The notes under the pieces were generated by a model. The model saw nothing but the letters and a program-made list of their open reading frames with translations, did not search any database and was not told the DNA's origin. A program made the position numbers and the translations under genes. Below are positions 1,766 through 18,239 of a stretch of 64,000 nucleotides of DNA, piece by piece. Position 1 is the stretch's first letter. The number at the start of each line of letters is the position of its first letter. Location of the stretch: the NCBI RefSeq assembly GCF_006538885.1, contig NZ_BJLY01000001.1, positions 372,001-436,000 of the forward strand, read 5' to 3'. Origin of the DNA: Gluconobacter roseus NBRC 3990. GTDB taxonomy: Bacteria > Pseudomonadota > Alphaproteobacteria > Acetobacterales > Acetobacteraceae.

Positions 1766-3372
1766 TGATCCGTATTACCGAACTGCGCCTGCCCCTGGAT
1801 CATCCGGAAGAGGCGCTGCGTGAGGCTGTGCTTGCGCGTCTGAATATTGCCCCGGAAGGCCTGAAGGCCCTGCATGTGGCGCGTCGTGGATATGATGCCC
1901 GCAAGCGTGGCCATATCGTGCTGGTCTATAATGTGGACTGCGATGTTGCCGATGAAGCCACGGTACTGGCGGCGCATGAAGGCGACCAGCATGTGCGGCC
2001 GACGCCGGACATGACCTATCATCCGCCGGAAGCGACGCTGCCTGAAGGCATGCCGCGTCCCGTCGTGATCGGCGCGGGACCGTGTGGGATCATGGCGGCG
2101 CTGACGCTGGCACAGGCCGGATTGAAACCCATCATCATCGAGCGTGGCAAGGATGTACGTTCCCGGACGGTCGATACGTTCGCACTGTGGCGCAAATCCG
2201 TCCTGACGCCTGAAAGCAACGTGCAGTTCGGTGAGGGCGGGGCGGGGACGTTCTCGGACGGCAAGCTCTATTCCGGCGTTTCGGACCCGCGCCATCTGGG
2301 GCGGCATGTTCTGGAAGAATTCGTGCGCGCGGGAGCGCCGGAAGAAATCCTGACCATTTCCAAACCGCATATCGGTACGTTCCGGCTGGTCACGATGGTC
2401 ATGTTCATCCGCGCCGAAATCGAGCGTCTGGGCGGTGAGTACCGGTTCGAGACCCGCGTGGAAGGGTTCGACATGGAAGGCGAGGGTACGGAGCGGTGTC
2501 TGCGCGGCCTGCGTCTGTCCAATGGTGAAACGCTACCGGCGGAACGTGTCATTCTGGCTGTCGGACACTCGGCGCGCGATACGTTCGAGATGCTGCGTGA
2601 TGCTCAGATGGAAATGGATGCCAAACCGTTCTCCATCGGTGTGCGGATCGAGCATCCGCAGTCGGTGATCGACGTGGCCCGTTTCGGGGCGAGCGCCGGG
2701 CATGAAATGCTGGGGGCGGCGGATTACAAACTCGTCCATCATGCCTCGAATGGCCGTGCGGTCTATTCGTTCTGCATGTGCCCTGGAGGGCAGGTCGTGG
2801 CGGCGACATCCGAAGAAGGACAGGTCGTCACCAACGGCATGAGCCAGTATTCGCGGGCCGAGCGTAATGCCAATAGCGGTATCGTCGTTGAAGTGAAGCC
2901 GGAACTGGATTTTCCGGACGACGTGCTGGGCGGCATGGCTTTTCAGCGGAAATGGGAAAAAGCTGCGTTCGTCGCGGGTGGCAGCAACTACAACGCGCCG
3001 GCGCAGAGGGTCGGGGATTTTCTGGCAGGCCGTCCGTCTACATCGCTCGGTGCGGTCGTGCCGTCATACCAACCGGGTGTGACGCCGACGGATCTGACGC
3101 AATGCCTGCCGGCTTTCGTGACGGATGCCATCCGCGAGGCCCTGCCGCAGTTCGAGCGCAAGCTGCGCGGATTTTCGATGGAAGATGCGGTCATGACCGG
3201 CGTGGAAACGCGGACGTCCTCTCCGATCCGGCTGCGTCGTGACCGTGAAGGGCAAAGTCCGACGCTGCGGGGCCTGTTCCCAGCGGGCGAGGGCGCAGGA
3301 TATGCCGGCGGCATCCTCTCCGCCGGGATTGATGGTATCCGCGCGGCGGAGTGGCTGGCGGCCTCTCTTTAA
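1765..3372 (+). CDS. FAD-dependent dehydrogenase, COG2509 type
   Basis: A 535-residue flavoprotein. The first 90 residues form a small N-terminal domain. The dinucleotide-binding motif VVIGAGPCGIMAALTLAQAG follows near residues 100-118, then the ERGKDVRSRT segment and the FGEGGAGTFSDGKLYS stretch characteristic of COG2509 oxidoreductases. A C-terminal FPAGEGAGYAGGILSAGIDG closes the FAD site. Substrate and electron partner are unknown for this group. It is coupled to the upstream UPF0114 gene (TGATG overlap) and ends within four bases of the convergent MFS gene, so no terminator separates the two. Confidence 0.9.
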   Translation: MIRITELRLPLDHPEEALREAVLARLNIAPEGLKALHVARRGYDARKRGHIVLVYNVDCDVADEATVLAAHEGDQHVRPTPDMTYHPPEATLPEGMPRPVVIGAGPCGIMAALTLAQAGLKPIIIERGKDVRSRTVDTFALWRKSVLTPESNVQFGEGGAGTFSDGKLYSGVSDPRHLGRHVLEEFVRAGAPEEILTISKPHIGTFRLVTMVMFIRAEIERLGGEYRFETRVEGFDMEGEGTERCLRGLRLSNGETLPAERVILAVGHSARDTFEMLRDAQMEMDAKPFSIGVRIEHPQSVIDVARFGASAGHEMLGAADYKLVHHASNGRAVYSFCMCPGGQVVAATSEEGQVVTNGMSQYSRAERNANSGIVVEVKPELDFPDDVLGGMAFQRKWEKAAFVAGGSNYNAPAQRVGDFLAGRPSTSLGAVVPSYQPGVTPTDLTQCLPAFVTDAIREALPQFERKLRGFSMEDAVMTGVETRTSSPIRLRRDREGQSPTLRGLFPAGEGAGYAGGILSAGIDGIRAAEWLAASL

Positions 3373-4652
3373 GAGGCCGTCTCGTCGCCTTCCATGTGTT
3401 CGCCCGGAAGTTCTTTCGGGCGGATGAGAGCGATGGCACCGGTCACAAGGCTGGTGCCCAGCACGAAGATCTCCGCTGACAGAGGCAGGGTGAGGGCTGT
3501 GGGGCCGAACATGGGCACGAATTTCTGTGCCATGCCCTGCCCGATGGAGCCGAGCGCATAACCCAGTCCCATACCGAAGCTGCGTGTGTCAGACGGGAAG
3601 CGCTGTGCCAGATAATGTGGGACAAGGGCGAAGATGCCCGAAGCCGCCGCGCCCATGACGAAGGCGGCAATCAGCAGCATGTTCCAGCCAGGTGCACTCA
3701 GGAACGGCCATATTGTCAGCATCACGACAACCAGTGCACTGAGCATGACGCGGACTTCCCCGAACCGTTCGGCCAGCCAGCCGCAGAATACTTTTCCGCT
3801 GAATGATCCAAGGCAGTAGAGCGTGACGGGCCAGAAGACCGCCTGCTGCGTCAGATGATGGCTGCCGCGCAGGATCGTCGGATAATAGGTGTAGATCGCG
3901 GCTTTCTGGAATTCGAGAAAGCTCATAAACGCAATGGCCTGAAAGGCTGCGCCAGTCAGGCGGAATTTCGGACGCAGTTTCGGCTGGATATGTTCCCGGC
4001 GCCCCTGTGCCAGCCGGGCTTCGCGGTTGCGGAGCCAGACTGGGCTCTCGGGCACGCCAATCCGCACGAACAGCGCCAGAAGGGCCGGAGCCAGACCGAT
4101 AAAGAACAGGATGCGCCATCCATAATGCGGCAGCACCAGTGCCTGCACGGCTGCGGCAACAAAATACCCGACTTCGTAGCCGGACATCATGAGCGCCGAA
4201 GCCATCGGGCGCGTCCAGGCTGGCACACTTTCCATCAAAAGTGCGGCCGATGCGGTCCATTCGCCCCCAAAGCCGATTCCGAACATGAACTGCACGGCCA
4301 TGAGCACATAAAAGTGATGGGAGAGGCCTGTCAGAGCGGAAAAGACCGCAAACCACACCACGCCAAGCATGAAAGCAGGCTTGCGACCATAGCGGTCAGC
4401 CAGCCACCCCCAACCGGTATTCCCGACGGCACGTCCGATGGACTGTCCCATCAGAACAGCCCCCAGATCGGCAATCGTGCACCCGAAATCATGGGCGATA
4501 TCCGGCAGCGTGAACATGAGTGTCGTCTGGTCAAAAGCGTCCAGAAACCAGCCCAGAAAAGACGCAAAAGTGACCTGCCAGTAGGGCAGGAGGGCACGCA
4601 GCGAGCCTTGGGAAGAAGGAGGTACGGCGGAGCGGGTCGTGGCATCCGTCAT
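3369..4652 (-). CDS. MFS transporter, sialate/lactate-type (SHS-like) proton symporter
   Basis: A 427-residue major facilitator with twelve predicted helices. The N-terminal FASFLGWFLDAFDQTTLMFTL carries the D-x-x-D arrangement of organic-acid proton symporters. The loop 2-3 signature GWLADRYGRKPAFMLG and the helix 4-5 GIGFGGEWTASAALLME and RPMASALMMSGYEVG segments resemble the NanT, YjhB and Jen1 groups. It probably imports a carboxylic acid across the inner membrane; the substrate is inferred only. I chose the ATG at 4652 with AGGA upstream, because 5' extensions in this frame are Arg-rich and unlike the family. Convergent with the FAD oxidoreductase. Confidence 0.87.
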   Translation of the reverse strand: MTDATTRSAVPPSSQGSLRALLPYWQVTFASFLGWFLDAFDQTTLMFTLPDIAHDFGCTIADLGAVLMGQSIGRAVGNTGWGWLADRYGRKPAFMLGVVWFAVFSALTGLSHHFYVLMAVQFMFGIGFGGEWTASAALLMESVPAWTRPMASALMMSGYEVGYFVAAAVQALVLPHYGWRILFFIGLAPALLALFVRIGVPESPVWLRNREARLAQGRREHIQPKLRPKFRLTGAAFQAIAFMSFLEFQKAAIYTYYPTILRGSHHLTQQAVFWPVTLYCLGSFSGKVFCGWLAERFGEVRVMLSALVVVMLTIWPFLSAPGWNMLLIAAFVMGAAASGIFALVPHYLAQRFPSDTRSFGMGLGYALGSIGQGMAQKFVPMFGPTALTLPLSAEIFVLGTSLVTGAIALIRPKELPGEHMEGDETAS

Positions 4653-12698: not shown

Positions 12699-14138
12699 AT
12701 GACCCAGTCCGACAGTCTCAACCGCCCGTACGAAGAGTGTGGGGTTTTTGGCGTCTGGGGTGTGCCTGATGCATCGGCCCTGACAGCTCTGGGCCTGCAT
12801 GCCCTGCAGCACCGCGGACAGGAAGCCGCCGGTATCGTCAGTTTCGATGGTGAACGGTTCCACCAGCACAAAGGTCTGGGGCTAGTCGGCGACGTGTTCG
12901 GTGACAGTCGCGTCATGGCGACGCTGCCCGGCACGGTGGCCATCGGTCACAACCGCTATGCCACGACGGGCGGCACGCATGTCCGTAACGTGCAGCCGCT
13001 TTATGCCGATTATGAGTTCGGTGGCTTGGCCGTCGCGCATAACGGCAATCTGACCAATTCCGCGACGCTCAAGCAGGCGCTGGTCAAGCGCGGGTGTATC
13101 TTCCATTCCTCGACGGATACGGAAGTCTTCATCCATCTGATCGCGATTTCGCTCTATACGACCGTGCTCGATCGCTTCATCGATGCCGTCAAGCAGGTGA
13201 AGGGTGCGTATTCGCTCATTACGCTGACGCCGGATGACGGCCTGATCGGCATGCGCGATCCGCTCGGGGTGCGTCCGCTCGTTCTTGGCCGGATGCCGGG
13301 CTATGAGCAGGGTAATGGTGGCTGGGTACTGGCCAGTGAGACCTGCGCGCTGGATATCATTGGTGCGGATTATGTCCGGGATATCGAGCCCGGCGAGATT
13401 GTAGTCATCAATAATGACGGGCTGCGTTCCCTGCGGCCTTTCGGGGACAAGGGCGGCCGGTTCTGCGTCTTTGAATATATTTACTTTGCGCGGCCTGACT
13501 CCGTGCTCGAGGGACAGCCGGTTTATGAAGCCCGGCGGCAGATTGGCTGTGAACTGGCGCGAGAAAGTGCGGTCGAGGCTGATGTTGTCGTGCCGGTGCC
13601 GGATTCCGGCGTGCCGTCTGCGATCGGCTATGCGGCAGAGAGCGGGATTCCGTTCGAGCTTGGCATCATCCGCAACCATTATGTGGGCCGGACCTTCATT
13701 GAGCCGACGGACCAGATCCGTAATCTTGGCGTGAAGATGAAGCATTCCGCCAACCGGCCGGTTCTGGCGGGCAAGCGGGTCATCCTCGTGGATGATTCGA
13801 TTGTCCGTGGGACGACGTCCCGCAAGATCGTGGATATGGTGCGCGCGGCTGGTGCGACGGAAGTGCATATGCGCATTACGTCTCCGCCGACGAAACATGC
13901 CTGCTTCTATGGCATCGACACGCCGGAAGAGAGCAAGCTGATGGCGGCGACGCATACGCTTGAGGAAATGGCACAGGCGATTGGTGCGGACAGTCTGGCC
14001 TTCGTCAGCTTTGACGGACTTTACCGGGCGCTGGGTCATGCCAACCGGGCCGAGGGTGCGCGCCGTTACTGCGATGCTTGTTTTACCGGGGATTATCCGA
14101 TCGAACTGGTGGACAAGGAAGGCAATCTGGTCGCGTAA
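12699..14138 (+). CDS. purF: Amidophosphoribosyltransferase
   Basis: A 479-residue enzyme that makes 5-phosphoribosylamine from PRPP and glutamine, the committed step of purine synthesis. The N-terminal Ntn glutaminase has YEECGVFGVWG with the catalytic Cys14, so a short propeptide of 13 residues would be removed. HNRYATTGG and VAHNGNLTN line the glutamine site. The phosphoribosyltransferase half has the PRPP loop VILVDDSIVRGTTSRKIV. The C-terminal YCDACFTGDYPIE region has cysteines of the B. subtilis-type enzyme. The gene follows cvpA by 26 bases and ends at a strong terminator. Confidence 0.97.
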   Translation: MTQSDSLNRPYEECGVFGVWGVPDASALTALGLHALQHRGQEAAGIVSFDGERFHQHKGLGLVGDVFGDSRVMATLPGTVAIGHNRYATTGGTHVRNVQPLYADYEFGGLAVAHNGNLTNSATLKQALVKRGCIFHSSTDTEVFIHLIAISLYTTVLDRFIDAVKQVKGAYSLITLTPDDGLIGMRDPLGVRPLVLGRMPGYEQGNGGWVLASETCALDIIGADYVRDIEPGEIVVINNDGLRSLRPFGDKGGRFCVFEYIYFARPDSVLEGQPVYEARRQIGCELARESAVEADVVVPVPDSGVPSAIGYAAESGIPFELGIIRNHYVGRTFIEPTDQIRNLGVKMKHSANRPVLAGKRVILVDDSIVRGTTSRKIVDMVRAAGATEVHMRITSPPTKHACFYGIDTPEESKLMAATHTLEEMAQAIGADSLAFVSFDGLYRALGHANRAEGARRYCDACFTGDYPIELVDKEGNLVA

Positions 14139-14161: not shown

Positions 14162-14199
14162 AAAAAAGGCGCCGGACCAGTGGTCAGGCGCCTTTTTTG
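14162..14199. terminator. Bidirectional intrinsic terminator after purF
   Basis: Stem AAAAAAGGCGCC / GGCGCCTTTTTT with an intervening GGACCAGTGGTCA loop that can itself pair. T and A tracts on both sides let it serve purF and the convergent phytochrome gene. Confidence 0.9.
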
Positions 14200-14221: not shown

Positions 14222-16495
14222 TCAGGGATATGGGTAGGGGATCTGGGACAGTGCGGCTTCCGTACTGGCATCGGCTTCCGTGGGAAGCACTGAGTCCAGA
14301 GGCAGGGTCATGACGGCTTCGAGGCCCGGATTCAGGGTCGTGTAGGTGAGTGTGCCGGCAAGACTGCTGACTACGGCATTCATCATGCGTGTGCCGAAGC
14401 CCGTGCCCTTGAGCTGGGGCGTACATTCCCCCTGGTCCGAGACGGTCAGGATCAGGCGGTCGCTGGTCTGGGCCAGACCGACATGCAGCGGGCCTGCGTT
14501 GCCGTCATAGGCGTATTTGCTGGCATTGATGACCAGTTCGGTCAGGACGAGGCCGATATTGATCGCACGGTCCGCTGAAATCATGATCGGGAAGAGCGCG
14601 AGGCGCAGTTGCTGGTGCCAGTCTTCGCCAAGGGACGAGCACAGCTCTTCCATCAGTTCTTCAAGATAGCGCCCGAGATCCACGACACCGAAATGCTCGT
14701 CGCGGTACAGGCGGCGATGTACGAGACCGATGGCCGCGATGCGGTGCTGCGCTTCGGTCAGCGCGGTTGTGGTTTCCTCGTTCGCGGCACTGCGGGCCTG
14801 GAGCTTGAGAAAGGAAGCAACCATCTGCAGGGAGTTCTGGACGCGGTGATTGACTTCGCGGATCAGGAAATCCTTCTGGCGCAGCAGGCTTTCGCGCTCT
14901 TCCAGCGTGGCGGCGAGCGTTGCATTGAGCTCGCGGAGTTGCTGGGTCTGGTAGTCCGCGATCAGAACGCGACGGAGGCGACGGGCGGCCTGCTTCTGTT
15001 CGTTTGTCCAGCGCAGGCTGTGACCACGAATGGTCTGCTCCCAGGTCTTGAACGAGGTTCGGGGACGCAGGACGCCGTCGTCATCCTCATCGCCCTTGTG
15101 CGGGTTGCCGGCCCATTCGATGGTCTGGATGATTTCGACACGGCTCCAGATAAGGCACATCGGTGTCCGGAAGGGGAGCGTAATGGCCAGGATGCCGGCA
15201 GAGCGTTCGGGCCAGTCGGCTGCGGGCGGGTAGTCCTTGCCCAGCATGGCGCTGGTGAAAATGCCGCCATTGGTGCCCATCCTCAGCCAGTCATGCAGCT
15301 TGTGCAGGTTCTCGCTATCCGGCAGGACACCGGTTGCCGTGATGGTCTCGCCGCTGATCACGGCAAAGCCGTTGCAGGAGAACAGGGACTGCAACTCGCC
15401 CATGAAGCTGCGCAGATTGCTCTCGATGGGGTGGCGCACGTCGAAATGGGACGTGACGAACTCCATCGCATTGCGCAGGCGCAGACGCTCCTGATAGGTA
15501 ACCAGCTCTTCCTTGTTCCGCAGCTGCCGTGACATGACGCCTGCCAGCGTGCGGCAGGCAGCGCGGACGTCTTCGGAGAGGCGACGCGGCGTCGCATTAT
15601 GGCAGGCGATCAGACCCCACAGGACACCATCCACGACCAGTGAGACCGAGGCCGAGGCCCGCACGCCCATATTGGCCATGTATTGCAGATGGATCGGCGA
15701 GACACTGCGGAGCTGGACATCGCTGAGGTTGAGCCCCGCAAGCCCGGCTTCGGGCGGGCGGATGGAGGCGGCCTCGTAGGTGATGTCCGGGATGACGCGG
15801 ATGCGGTTGCGCAGATAGAGCGCCCGGGCCTGCGCGGGGATGTCGCTGGCCGGGAAGTGATGGTTCATCAGGGACGGGAAGGCGTCGTTGCGGCTTTCCC
15901 CGACAACGCGGCCGGTGCCGTCCTCCATGAAACGGTAGACCAGAACGCGGTCGAAGCCGGTAAGGCGCTGGAAGATCGTGGCGCCCTGACGGCAGACGGA
16001 TGCCGTATCGGGGCACCGTTCGAAACGGTCGGCCGTGCGGTCGATCTCGCCGAAAATATCCCAGGTCAGCAGGTTATGCGGTTCGACCGGTTCGAGTTCG
16101 ATGAGGATATGCGTGTCCTGATCGTGTCGCAGGACGCTGAAGGTCTCGCCTTTCAGGCCCGGCACGCGCAGATCGGACAGGGAGGGATGTTTTTCGTCGT
16201 GAAAACGGCTTGTCGGGACTTCCAGGATCGCGGGGAGGGGACGTCCCAGCCAGTCCGGTGCAAGACGCCCTTCGATATCACCTGCGCCACCGATGATGGT
16301 CAGGGTCGTGCTGTCAGCGACCAGCAGCAGTCCGTAAGGCTGGATGGCATCAGGACGGTGGATCGGCTCACGGTCACAGGAGGTCGTGACGGCGTGTTCC
16401 AGCGAGTAGCCCGGCTCGGAGGCGGCTGTGCGCTGGACGGTCAAGAGGAGGTCCGCCTGAAAGAAGAGACTGTCCGCAGGGCAGACTGTCTGCAA
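14222..16495 (-). CDS. Bacteriophytochrome-type light-sensing histidine kinase
   Basis: Up to 757 residues with PAS-GAF-PHY photosensory domains and an HWE/HisKA_2-type kinase. SCDREPIHRPDAIQPYG holds the biliverdin-binding Cys (residue 40 from this start). HHFPASDIPAQAR is the GAF pyrrole-contact motif, and RPRTSF is the PHY tongue. The kinase has EVNHRVQNSLQMVAS (His550), LTELVINASKYAY (N box) and GTGFGTRMM (G box). No response-regulator or heme oxygenase gene is adjacent. The start is unusual: no ATG or GTG lies between the upstream stop (16496-16498) and the Cys. TTG 16444 would put the Cys at residue 23, as in known phytochromes, and is my preferred alternative to TTG 16495. Confidence 0.9.
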   Translation of the reverse strand: MQTVCPADSLFFQADLLLTVQRTAASEPGYSLEHAVTTSCDREPIHRPDAIQPYGLLLVADSTTLTIIGGAGDIEGRLAPDWLGRPLPAILEVPTSRFHDEKHPSLSDLRVPGLKGETFSVLRHDQDTHILIELEPVEPHNLLTWDIFGEIDRTADRFERCPDTASVCRQGATIFQRLTGFDRVLVYRFMEDGTGRVVGESRNDAFPSLMNHHFPASDIPAQARALYLRNRIRVIPDITYEAASIRPPEAGLAGLNLSDVQLRSVSPIHLQYMANMGVRASASVSLVVDGVLWGLIACHNATPRRLSEDVRAACRTLAGVMSRQLRNKEELVTYQERLRLRNAMEFVTSHFDVRHPIESNLRSFMGELQSLFSCNGFAVISGETITATGVLPDSENLHKLHDWLRMGTNGGIFTSAMLGKDYPPAADWPERSAGILAITLPFRTPMCLIWSRVEIIQTIEWAGNPHKGDEDDDGVLRPRTSFKTWEQTIRGHSLRWTNEQKQAARRLRRVLIADYQTQQLRELNATLAATLEERESLLRQKDFLIREVNHRVQNSLQMVASFLKLQARSAANEETTTALTEAQHRIAAIGLVHRRLYRDEHFGVVDLGRYLEELMEELCSSLGEDWHQQLRLALFPIMISADRAINIGLVLTELVINASKYAYDGNAGPLHVGLAQTSDRLILTVSDQGECTPQLKGTGFGTRMMNAVVSSLAGTLTYTTLNPGLEAVMTLPLDSVLPTEADASTEAALSQIPYPYP

Positions 16496-16648
16496 TCAGC
16501 AGGGGCAGTTTGAAGAGCAGCGGACATAGAGAGCACTCGGTTTGTGGATGCCTTCCGCGTTCGGGAAGGCCCGACCAGCGGAGGTCCAGATATCATTCTG
16601 TCCATTATCTGTTCCTCTACCGGGGCTGTCAATTTATGACGTTCTGTT

Positions 16649-18133
16649 TCAGGGCTGTCGGCTGTCAGCCTGGATCCAGGAGGCGACATCCGCAGAGAGG
16701 GCATGGCGGCTGGCCGGGCGCGTATAGAGCATGTGGCCGCCCTGATAGAGATGCAGCGACACGCGATCTGCACCCACCGTCAGATGATCCTTCATCCAGT
16801 GTGCCGTTCCGAATGGGCAGGCCACGTCATAATAGCCATTGGCCACGAAGACGCGCAGGCCGGGATCGAGCGCCAGCAGGCGGTTGAGGACCGGGATCTG
16901 GTGGATCGGCGAGGGACCACCCGAACTCCACTTCCAGCTTCCGTTCACCTTAAGGGAGAGCAGGTCGTAGGTCAGCGGGGTCTTGAAGCCGAGTTCATTG
17001 GCCGCGTAGCCGGAAAAAGCATTGCCATAGGCGCGGCCGAAGCCGAACAGCGTCGGATCAGGGCTTTCGTCCAGACCATCGGCGGCGGGGTCGGCGATGG
17101 ACTGGGTAAAGTCGTACAGCCCGTACAGGCGGCCGTCGCGGGACATGATGTCATGCGAGCCGATGGCGGGGATGCCGTGCTGACGGGCGATCACATCCTG
17201 CGGCAGACCGGTCCGCTGGGCGATCTCGGCGTAAAGCGCCTGACCTTCGGTGCCGGACGGGAGCTTGCCGGCGATTTTCGGCAGATAGGTGTTCAGGGAC
17301 CACTGATAGGCGTCTTCGGCGGTCTTTTCCGTCACGTTCGGGCTCTGATGCGATGTGATCAGGCTTGGCATCATGAGGGCGGCGGAGAGCGGGTTTTCGT
17401 CCGTGTCGAGCAGAGGCATCTCGATGGCCGGGGAGATCATCACGATGCCGTTGAGCAGGATGCCCTGTTCCATCTGCAGCGCATTCGCAACCTGGATGGA
17501 GCGGATGCCGCCATAGCTTTCGCCCACGAGATAGTGCGGCGAGGCTTCACGACCGTTTGCCGACGTCCACAGGCCGATGGCCTTGGCGAAGGCGCTGGCG
17601 TCCTGTTTGACGCCGTAGAACTGGTCCCCGGCCTTGGCCGTATCGGCGGGGCGGGAATAGCCCGTGCCTACGGCGTCGATGAAGACCATGTCCGTGACGG
17701 GGAGCCAACTGTCGGGGTTGTCACCCATCGTCGCGTGGGTGCCGTCCGTCGGGTCCTTGGCGGGCATGGTCAGGGCCTTGGGGCCAGCGGCACCGAGGTT
17801 CAGATAGGCCGTGGCCGCACCCGGACCGCCATTGAAGAAATACGAGACCGGGCGGGTTCCGGCCGGAACGCCGTCCTTGGTGTAGGACACGTAGAACATG
17901 CGGGCAGTTGGCTTGCCGTCATGGTCGCGCAGAATGAGCGTGCCGGCATGGGCGGTATAGGCGATGCCGCCCAGATGATGGTGCGTGACGGAATCCGCGG
18001 GAAGGAGCGCTGCTTCGCCGGTCAGGGTATCGGACGGCTTGGCGTTTTCGGTTTTGGGAGCGTCGGCCGCCGCGGCCGTACAGATGGGGGAGAGGAGCGT
18101 TAAAGCGAGCAGGGCTGCGCGGCGGGTCATCAT
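16649..18133 (-). CDS. S10-family serine carboxypeptidase, secreted
   Basis: A 494-residue alpha/beta-hydrolase. The N-terminus MMTRRAALLALTLLSPICTA is a signal peptide. VSYFFNGGPGAATAY supplies the oxyanion hole, YLVGESYGGIRSI the nucleophile Ser206, ANGYYDVACPFG the Asp, and LYQGGHMLY the His. This matches bacterial S10 peptidases, periplasmic enzymes that remove C-terminal residues. It lies downstream of fumC on the same strand with a hairpin between them. Start: ATG 18133 with GGAGA upstream; a longer in-frame reading has no signal-peptide logic. Confidence 0.9.
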   Translation of the reverse strand: MMTRRAALLALTLLSPICTAAAADAPKTENAKPSDTLTGEAALLPADSVTHHHLGGIAYTAHAGTLILRDHDGKPTARMFYVSYTKDGVPAGTRPVSYFFNGGPGAATAYLNLGAAGPKALTMPAKDPTDGTHATMGDNPDSWLPVTDMVFIDAVGTGYSRPADTAKAGDQFYGVKQDASAFAKAIGLWTSANGREASPHYLVGESYGGIRSIQVANALQMEQGILLNGIVMISPAIEMPLLDTDENPLSAALMMPSLITSHQSPNVTEKTAEDAYQWSLNTYLPKIAGKLPSGTEGQALYAEIAQRTGLPQDVIARQHGIPAIGSHDIMSRDGRLYGLYDFTQSIADPAADGLDESPDPTLFGFGRAYGNAFSGYAANELGFKTPLTYDLLSLKVNGSWKWSSGGPSPIHQIPVLNRLLALDPGLRVFVANGYYDVACPFGTAHWMKDHLTVGADRVSLHLYQGGHMLYTRPASRHALSADVASWIQADSRQP

Positions 18134-18201
18134 CTGACGGGCATCTCCGGGGAAAGAAACAGGAATATTCCGCCGTATCAGTCCTGAGACGCAACGGCTA
18201 C

Positions 18202-18239
18202 CGCTGCCGCATGAAGTTTTCGTCATGCAGCAGCGTTTT
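18202..18239. terminator. Hairpin between fumC and the S10 peptidase gene, possible terminator
   Basis: A 13-bp stem with one mismatch, CGCTGCcGCATGA (18202-18214) against TCATGCaGCAGCG (18223-18235), with a TTTT run only on the plus side. For the minus-strand genes it lacks a T tract, so it may only attenuate or stabilise the fumC mRNA end. Confidence 0.4.

Follow-up and report, generated by a model that had tools for sequence, protein, structure and literature searches.

A bacteriophytochrome kinase of Gluconobacter roseus with a non-ATG start and a probable, divergent BphO encoded far from it

The bacteriophytochrome locus

We analysed a 64-kb window (G000:C1:372001-436000) of the 2.88 Mb genome of Gluconobacter roseus NBRC 3990. 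An open frame on the minus strand (14222-16495; 757 aa counted from TTG 16495) contains five domains, all above the Pfam cut-offs: PAS_2 (16085-16378; PF08446, E 1.1e-8), GAF (15533-16000; PF01590, E 7e-12), which can be aligned to solved bacteriophytochromes, PHY with the PRxSF tongue motif (14954-15433; PF00360, E 5.9e-38), HisKA_2 (14633-14857; PF07568, E 1.2e-23), and HATPase_c (14294-14560; PF02518, E 3.7e-6). Based on the open frame, the Pfam matches, and a comparison of starts, the bphP coding sequence spans 14222-16444 on the same strand (740 codons plus stop). The PAS-GAF-PHY core is accompanied by a Cys upstream of the PAS fold, which is the predicted biliverdin attachment site (codon 16376-16378; residue 23 from TTG 16444), and the HisKA_2 kinase features comprise the ATPase domain and the H-box His, the phospho-acceptor by sequence (codon 14846-14848). 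The best relatives with solved structures are bacteriophytochromes (E down to 2.1e-87), and the closest named protein is the BphP of Gluconobacter vitians (98% identity). Judged from its sequence, the open frame is a real, ordinary bacteriophytochrome histidine kinase, of the type carried by nearly all Gluconobacter species, as an initial sequence-only reading had proposed from the full PAS-GAF-PHY-HisKA_2 architecture and the Cys.

The gene is flanked by a convergent gene for a purF-type amidophosphoribosyltransferase (12699-14138; named from its domains) and by a serine carboxypeptidase (S10) gene (16649-18226). The gap between purF and bphP holds a hairpin, AAAAAAGGCGCC...GGCGCCTTTTTT (window 14162-14198), which was found by eye, is absent from the scan listing, and looks like a two-way terminator.

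Conservation of BphP

Nineteen BphP sequences were tried for alignment and 18 were used, as G. thailandicus lacked a whole frame. The Cys, the DIP Asp, two pocket Tyr, two pocket His, the PRxSF motif, the PHY Arg/Ser/Trp, the H-box His, and the N-box Asn were invariant in all 18. We take the DIP Asp, the pocket His and Tyr, and PRxSF to have functional roles in bacteriophytochromes. For six further genomes of the genus we inspected only the start region, where the Cys is visible. The dN/dS values of 0.027-0.135 (15 of 16 pairs; the sixteenth required G. thailandicus) showed purifying selection at the sequence level. The values for G. sphaericus against its close relatives were 0.085-0.135, compared with 0.033-0.053 among those relatives, so constraint on its BphP may be relaxing. 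Frameshifts interrupt BphP in two genomes, G315 (L107; just past the Cys) and G. thailandicus (L024), and could reflect decay or sequencing errors.

A divergent BphO-like gene elsewhere in the genome

The sequence-only reading had noted that no bphO lies in the window, regarded the chromophore source as unclear, and proposed a genome-wide search for the gene. The Pfam model PF01126 detected no heme oxygenase in the whole genome and matched above its cut-off in only 7 of the 26 Gluconobacter genomes. As the sole test for bphO this negative result was misleading: two sub-threshold PF01126 matches in relatives, each about 200 aa long, proved homologous to heme oxygenases and led to a divergent family. 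Other sub-threshold matches (L064, L065) were unrelated proteins of 673 aa. A BphO-like protein query then found a single relative in the G. roseus genome, on another contig (G000:C4:373424-373966), where its neighbours are an AsmA-family gene and, on the other side, a glycosyltransferase gene with lepA beyond it. The same query matched 25 of the 26 Gluconobacter genomes, with full-length genes in 24, all of which have a PHY match, and only a fragment in G180; G. sphaericus (G314) gave no match.

A profile of the 24 members matched Neisseria meningitidis HemO (1j77) with E 5.9e-11 and Pseudomonas aeruginosa HO (1sk7) with E 1.7e-7; the six other listed matches, kinase chains with E 0.84-0.97, were attributed to chance. 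The homology extends over nearly the whole 1j77 chain and includes a GxLYxxEGSxLG-type motif. His26, invariant in 24/24 members, aligned to a His of HemO and is presumably the proximal heme ligand. Compared with these characterized enzymes the family is divergent, with 6 of the 24 members matching PF01126 at E up to 10. Against 13 Acetobacteraceae proteins detected with PF01126, the profile gave an hhalign probability of 97.4. The G. roseus protein by itself matched no Pfam or NCBIfam model and did not reach the PF01126 gathering score, and a BphO-like relative that adjoins bphP also fell below it (16.5 bits against a cut-off of 23). The PF01126 model thus seems too narrow for this branch.

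Association of the BphO-like gene with bphP

The distribution of the two genes was compared across 299 Acetobacteraceae genomes. The PHY domain occurs in 134 of these, including 25 of the 26 Gluconobacter genomes, so the view that a red-light sensor is unexpected in an acetic acid bacterium is not supported. Adding the divergent profile raised the number of PHY-bearing genomes with a heme oxygenase from 80 to 120 of 134. Both genes were found in 120 genomes, PHY alone in 14, heme oxygenase alone in 9 (one being the G180 remnant described below), and neither in 156; the species are related, so a P value for this table would not be fair. Among the BphP-bearing Gluconobacter, 24 of 25 have the BphO-like gene. 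In six genomes of one genus (g41; G040, G122, G173, G214, G246, G276), heme oxygenase is matched and PHY is not; the enzyme there probably has another role.

The gene order in relatives points in the same direction. The two best profile matches outside the genus, G048 and G025, which represent two genera, show the unlinked layout of Gluconobacter. The BphO-like gene adjoins an AsmA-family gene in G. roseus, G025, and G048, with lepA near it in G. roseus and G025; because G025 and G048 share the AsmA neighbourhood, the separation of bphO and bphP seems older than the genus. Among the next 14 matches (G179, G249, G248, G278, G107, G269, G293, G001, G016, G162, G205, G239, G225, G086), at least 13 have a PHY match no more than about 2 kb away; for G001 the adjacency was taken from the BphP open frame, and G086 is the one without adjacency among the PHY places listed. 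In G001, from a sister genus, the heme oxygenase and bphP frames overlap by 4 bases (L179:1063-3273 and 3270-3839, counted from the earliest possible start), and in Phenylobacterium haematophilum (L021) the heme oxygenase frame overlaps the start of the bphP frame. The two genes are thus genetically associated: non-adjacent in G. roseus, but co-inherited, and adjacent in relatives.

G180 is the single Gluconobacter genome without PHY. Its slot between the purF and peptidase genes is retained and bphP is gone, leaving a BphP remnant of 37 residues (45-81 of the 757-aa frame; E 1e-9). In its other slot, bounded by the AsmA-like and glycosyltransferase genes, an IS4/5-type transposase fragment is flanked on both sides by oxygenase remnants. 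The remnants of both genes (L100:6200-7300, G180:C5; L174:300-1170, G180:C22) therefore indicate that two unlinked genes decayed in the one species that lacks the receptor. In G. sphaericus, the glycosyltransferase and permease genes adjoin at the corresponding slot (L136:2000-2450, G314:C5), from which the AsmA-like gene and bphO are therefore gone. BphP is still open there; searches with PF01126 and the BphO-like query detected no heme oxygenase, and the gap contains only weak BphO-like stretches (best E 0.015).

A heme oxygenase homologue could also serve iron release, with BphP lacking a dedicated endogenous pigment source and using an imported bilin or none. The unlinked position of the two genes in this genome, the retention of BphP in G. 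sphaericus, and the nine family genomes with a heme oxygenase and no PHY would fit such an arrangement. Co-inheritance and co-decay with BphP, together with adjacency to a PHY gene in most of the best relatives outside the genus, argue against it. An iron role would also better suit the second, Pfam-detectable heme oxygenase that seven Gluconobacter genomes (L056-L062) carry besides the BphO-like one, and which possibly functions in iron acquisition. We consider supply from elsewhere, or none, improbable. Co-inheritance, co-decay, and adjacency in relatives suggest that the contig C4 gene is probably a BphO rather than any heme oxygenase, and that it probably makes the light-absorbing pigment of BphP. 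A candidate chromophore source is therefore predicted by the divergent gene on the other contig.

Position of the translation start

From the in-frame stop to the Cys, ATG, GTG, and TTG codons are limited to TTG 16495 and TTG 16444, 39 and 22 codons ahead of the Cys, respectively. As the sequence-only reading had stated, no ATG or GTG is available and a TTG must serve, which agrees with the comparison of the genus. Of the 26 Gluconobacter genomes searched, we examined every one that has a PHY match, 25 in all. The codon at -22 from the Cys is TTG in 17 genomes (G. albidus, one of these, was read separately) and GTG in 3; a TTG stands at -21 in 3 more and out of frame in 2. Thus, 23 of the 25 genomes have a non-ATG start 21-22 codons ahead of the Cys (TTG 20, GTG 3), and none has an ATG at either position. 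In 13 close species among the 25, the differences at the first, second, and third codon positions from TTG to Cys were 247, 250, and 537, compared with 141, 250, and 169 over the 27 bases upstream. Coding appears to start at about TTG 16444 because the third-position excess begins there. Based on this comparison, the most likely start of BphP is TTG 16444 (16442-16444, minus strand).

The reading frame remains open up to 16495, and the N-terminus would be longer if translation began at TTG 16495 or, through a frameshift, at an out-of-frame ATG. The clade of the window comprises 14 species; in 12 of them, an upstream frame that begins with ATG at a common site ends at the TGA of TTGAC; in the other two, in-frame ATGs for it occur only farther upstream. 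TTG 16495 is poorly conserved, being present in only the window, L001, and L005 among 17 aligned Gluconobacter rows, and the region upstream of 16444 carries no codon-position signal. The upstream frame stands at -1 relative to BphP in most species, at 0 in G. morbifer, and at +1 in G. aidae, which therefore speaks against programmed frameshifting. Loss of an ATG through a frameshift is unlikely because the start layout is conserved and the coding signal begins at the TTG. An upstream ATG lost by sequencing error, as the initial reading had allowed, was rejected, as the assemblies of other species have the same layout. We regard a longer N-terminus as highly improbable.

The start could also lie closer to the Cys, with the conserved TTGAC as a -35 promoter box. 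TTGAC is retained despite poorly aligned flanks, even in the two species where the TTG is one base out of frame with BphP (G. morbifer, L106; G. aidae, L113), and an in-frame ATG lies 3 codons ahead of the Cys in six species (G. aidae and five relatives), with a TTG at -4 in one more. This reading is scarcely credible. In 10 of the 17 rows, including the window, no ATG, GTG, or TTG occurs from the TTG (or its place) to the Cys, and the base after TTGAC can be A, C, G, or T, as expected of the third position of a Thr codon. In three basal species the site reads GTG GCC or GTG GTT instead of TTGAC, and a promoter scan gave none with TTGAC as its -35 and found one farther upstream.

Leader, ribosome binding, and promoter

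That promoter is sigma-70-like (TTGACA-17-GATAAT, 16604-16632, minus strand; 11 of 12 in the scan, with one found against 0.7 expected by chance). Such elements also occur in the alignment rows of several close species, and G. sphaericus (L007) lacks the TTGACA. A Shine-Dalgarno-like AGGCGGA (16452-16458, minus strand; by sequence) lies 7 nt ahead of TTG 16444, with a duplex energy of -5.8 kcal/mol that 7% of the sampled positions in the 140-nt leader match, and AGG(C/T)GGA occurs 7 bases upstream of the TTG in most of the 13 close species. We scored the pairing in 22 in-frame genomes, G. albidus being left out: it was equalled at 2 to 15% of the sampled positions in 17, at 18.5 to 26% in 4, and at 52.5% in G250. 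The pairing exceeds the leader average only by a moderate margin.

A putative upstream frame of 28 codons (16441-16527, minus strand) ends in a TGA that overlaps the start as TTGA; it has no codon-position signal, and 14.7% of shuffles gave an in-frame upstream frame of at least 20 codons. A leader peptide under selection was rejected: over the 9 codons before the TTG, differences are fewest at third positions of the leader frame (141, with 250 and 169 at the other two), so the leader shows no constraint at the peptide level. A general bias toward A as the fourth base, described in an excerpt of PMC5850271, may be all that the TTGA overlap reflects. It is conceivable, though doubtful, that the genus keeps a weak TTG or GTG start on its sole phytochrome on purpose, in many cases with the stop codon of a short leader frame overlapping it as TTGA, and thereby holds receptor synthesis low, perhaps coupled to leader translation, to match the biliverdin from a distant bphO.

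Signalling output

The search for a partner regulator that the initial reading had suggested yielded a candidate elsewhere in the genome and nothing in the window: none of the 25 receiver-domain matches of the genome falls within it. PhyR (L172), which has a sigma-like domain, adjoins an ECF sigma gene. Three proteins exceed the HisKA_2 cut-off, with strong matches for BphP and for a kinase near phyR, and a third just over the threshold whose gene adjoins a short receiver protein. The gene for the kinase near phyR (L180, G000:C2:446648) starts some 1.8 kb away from phyR, and its product is probably the main stress-response kinase. According to an excerpt of PMC12148442, HWE/HisKA2 kinases co-ordinate the PhyR-type stress response in alphaproteobacteria. 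The strongest candidate for a partner of BphP is the general stress response regulator PhyR, to which we would give about an even chance. As in the PhyR-EcfG systems outlined in the portions consulted of PMC12148442 and PMC5964349, PhyR and an ECF sigma gene are present and BphP is a strong HisKA_2 kinase; bphP lies on another contig than phyR, and the other strong HisKA_2 kinase is the one encoded near phyR, so a link from BphP to PhyR is putative.

Comparison with known systems and interpretation

The G. roseus protein shares the PAS-GAF-PHY core, the Cys ahead of the PAS domain, the pocket residues, and the PHY tongue motif with the solved bacteriophytochromes 4r70, 6bap, and 8u4x; Gluconobacter differs from these by the conserved non-ATG start and the unlinked bphO. 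In the bphO-bphP-bphR operon of Deinococcus radiodurans, as described in an excerpt of PMC8363230, the heme oxygenase supplies biliverdin to the BphP kinase. The predicted pairing of a heme oxygenase with a BphP kinase is alike here; unlike in the operon described in that excerpt, oxygenase and kinase genes lie on separate contigs and the window has no receiver-domain match. Our literature searches found no relevant paper on a Gluconobacter bacteriophytochrome (unrelated mentions only), and none on phytochrome with heme oxygenase in Acetobacteraceae or phytochrome with light in acetic acid bacteria.

Comparison across genomes showed the gene anatomy, the start codon, purifying selection, and a BphO-like gene that is present and inherited together with bphP. 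We consider it very likely that BphP is a functional kinase translated from TTG 16444. The divergent heme oxygenase encoded on contig C4 would cleave heme to biliverdin, which would attach to Cys23, with all contact residues checked being retained. Red and far-red light would then switch the HisKA_2 kinase, which perhaps feeds the PhyR stress response.

Of the earlier interpretation, the intact BphP, the TTG start, and the lack of an adjoining bphO stand; the lost ATG, the unclear chromophore source, and the unexpected sensor are not supported. The apparent orphan photoreceptor is thereby removed, as a probable pigment-making gene is present, too divergent for the Pfam model and far from bphP. 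G. sphaericus, with its BphP and no detectable bphO, offers a natural test case. For the family, these results suggest that calls of BphP without bphO made from PF01126 or from the gene neighbourhood are often false.
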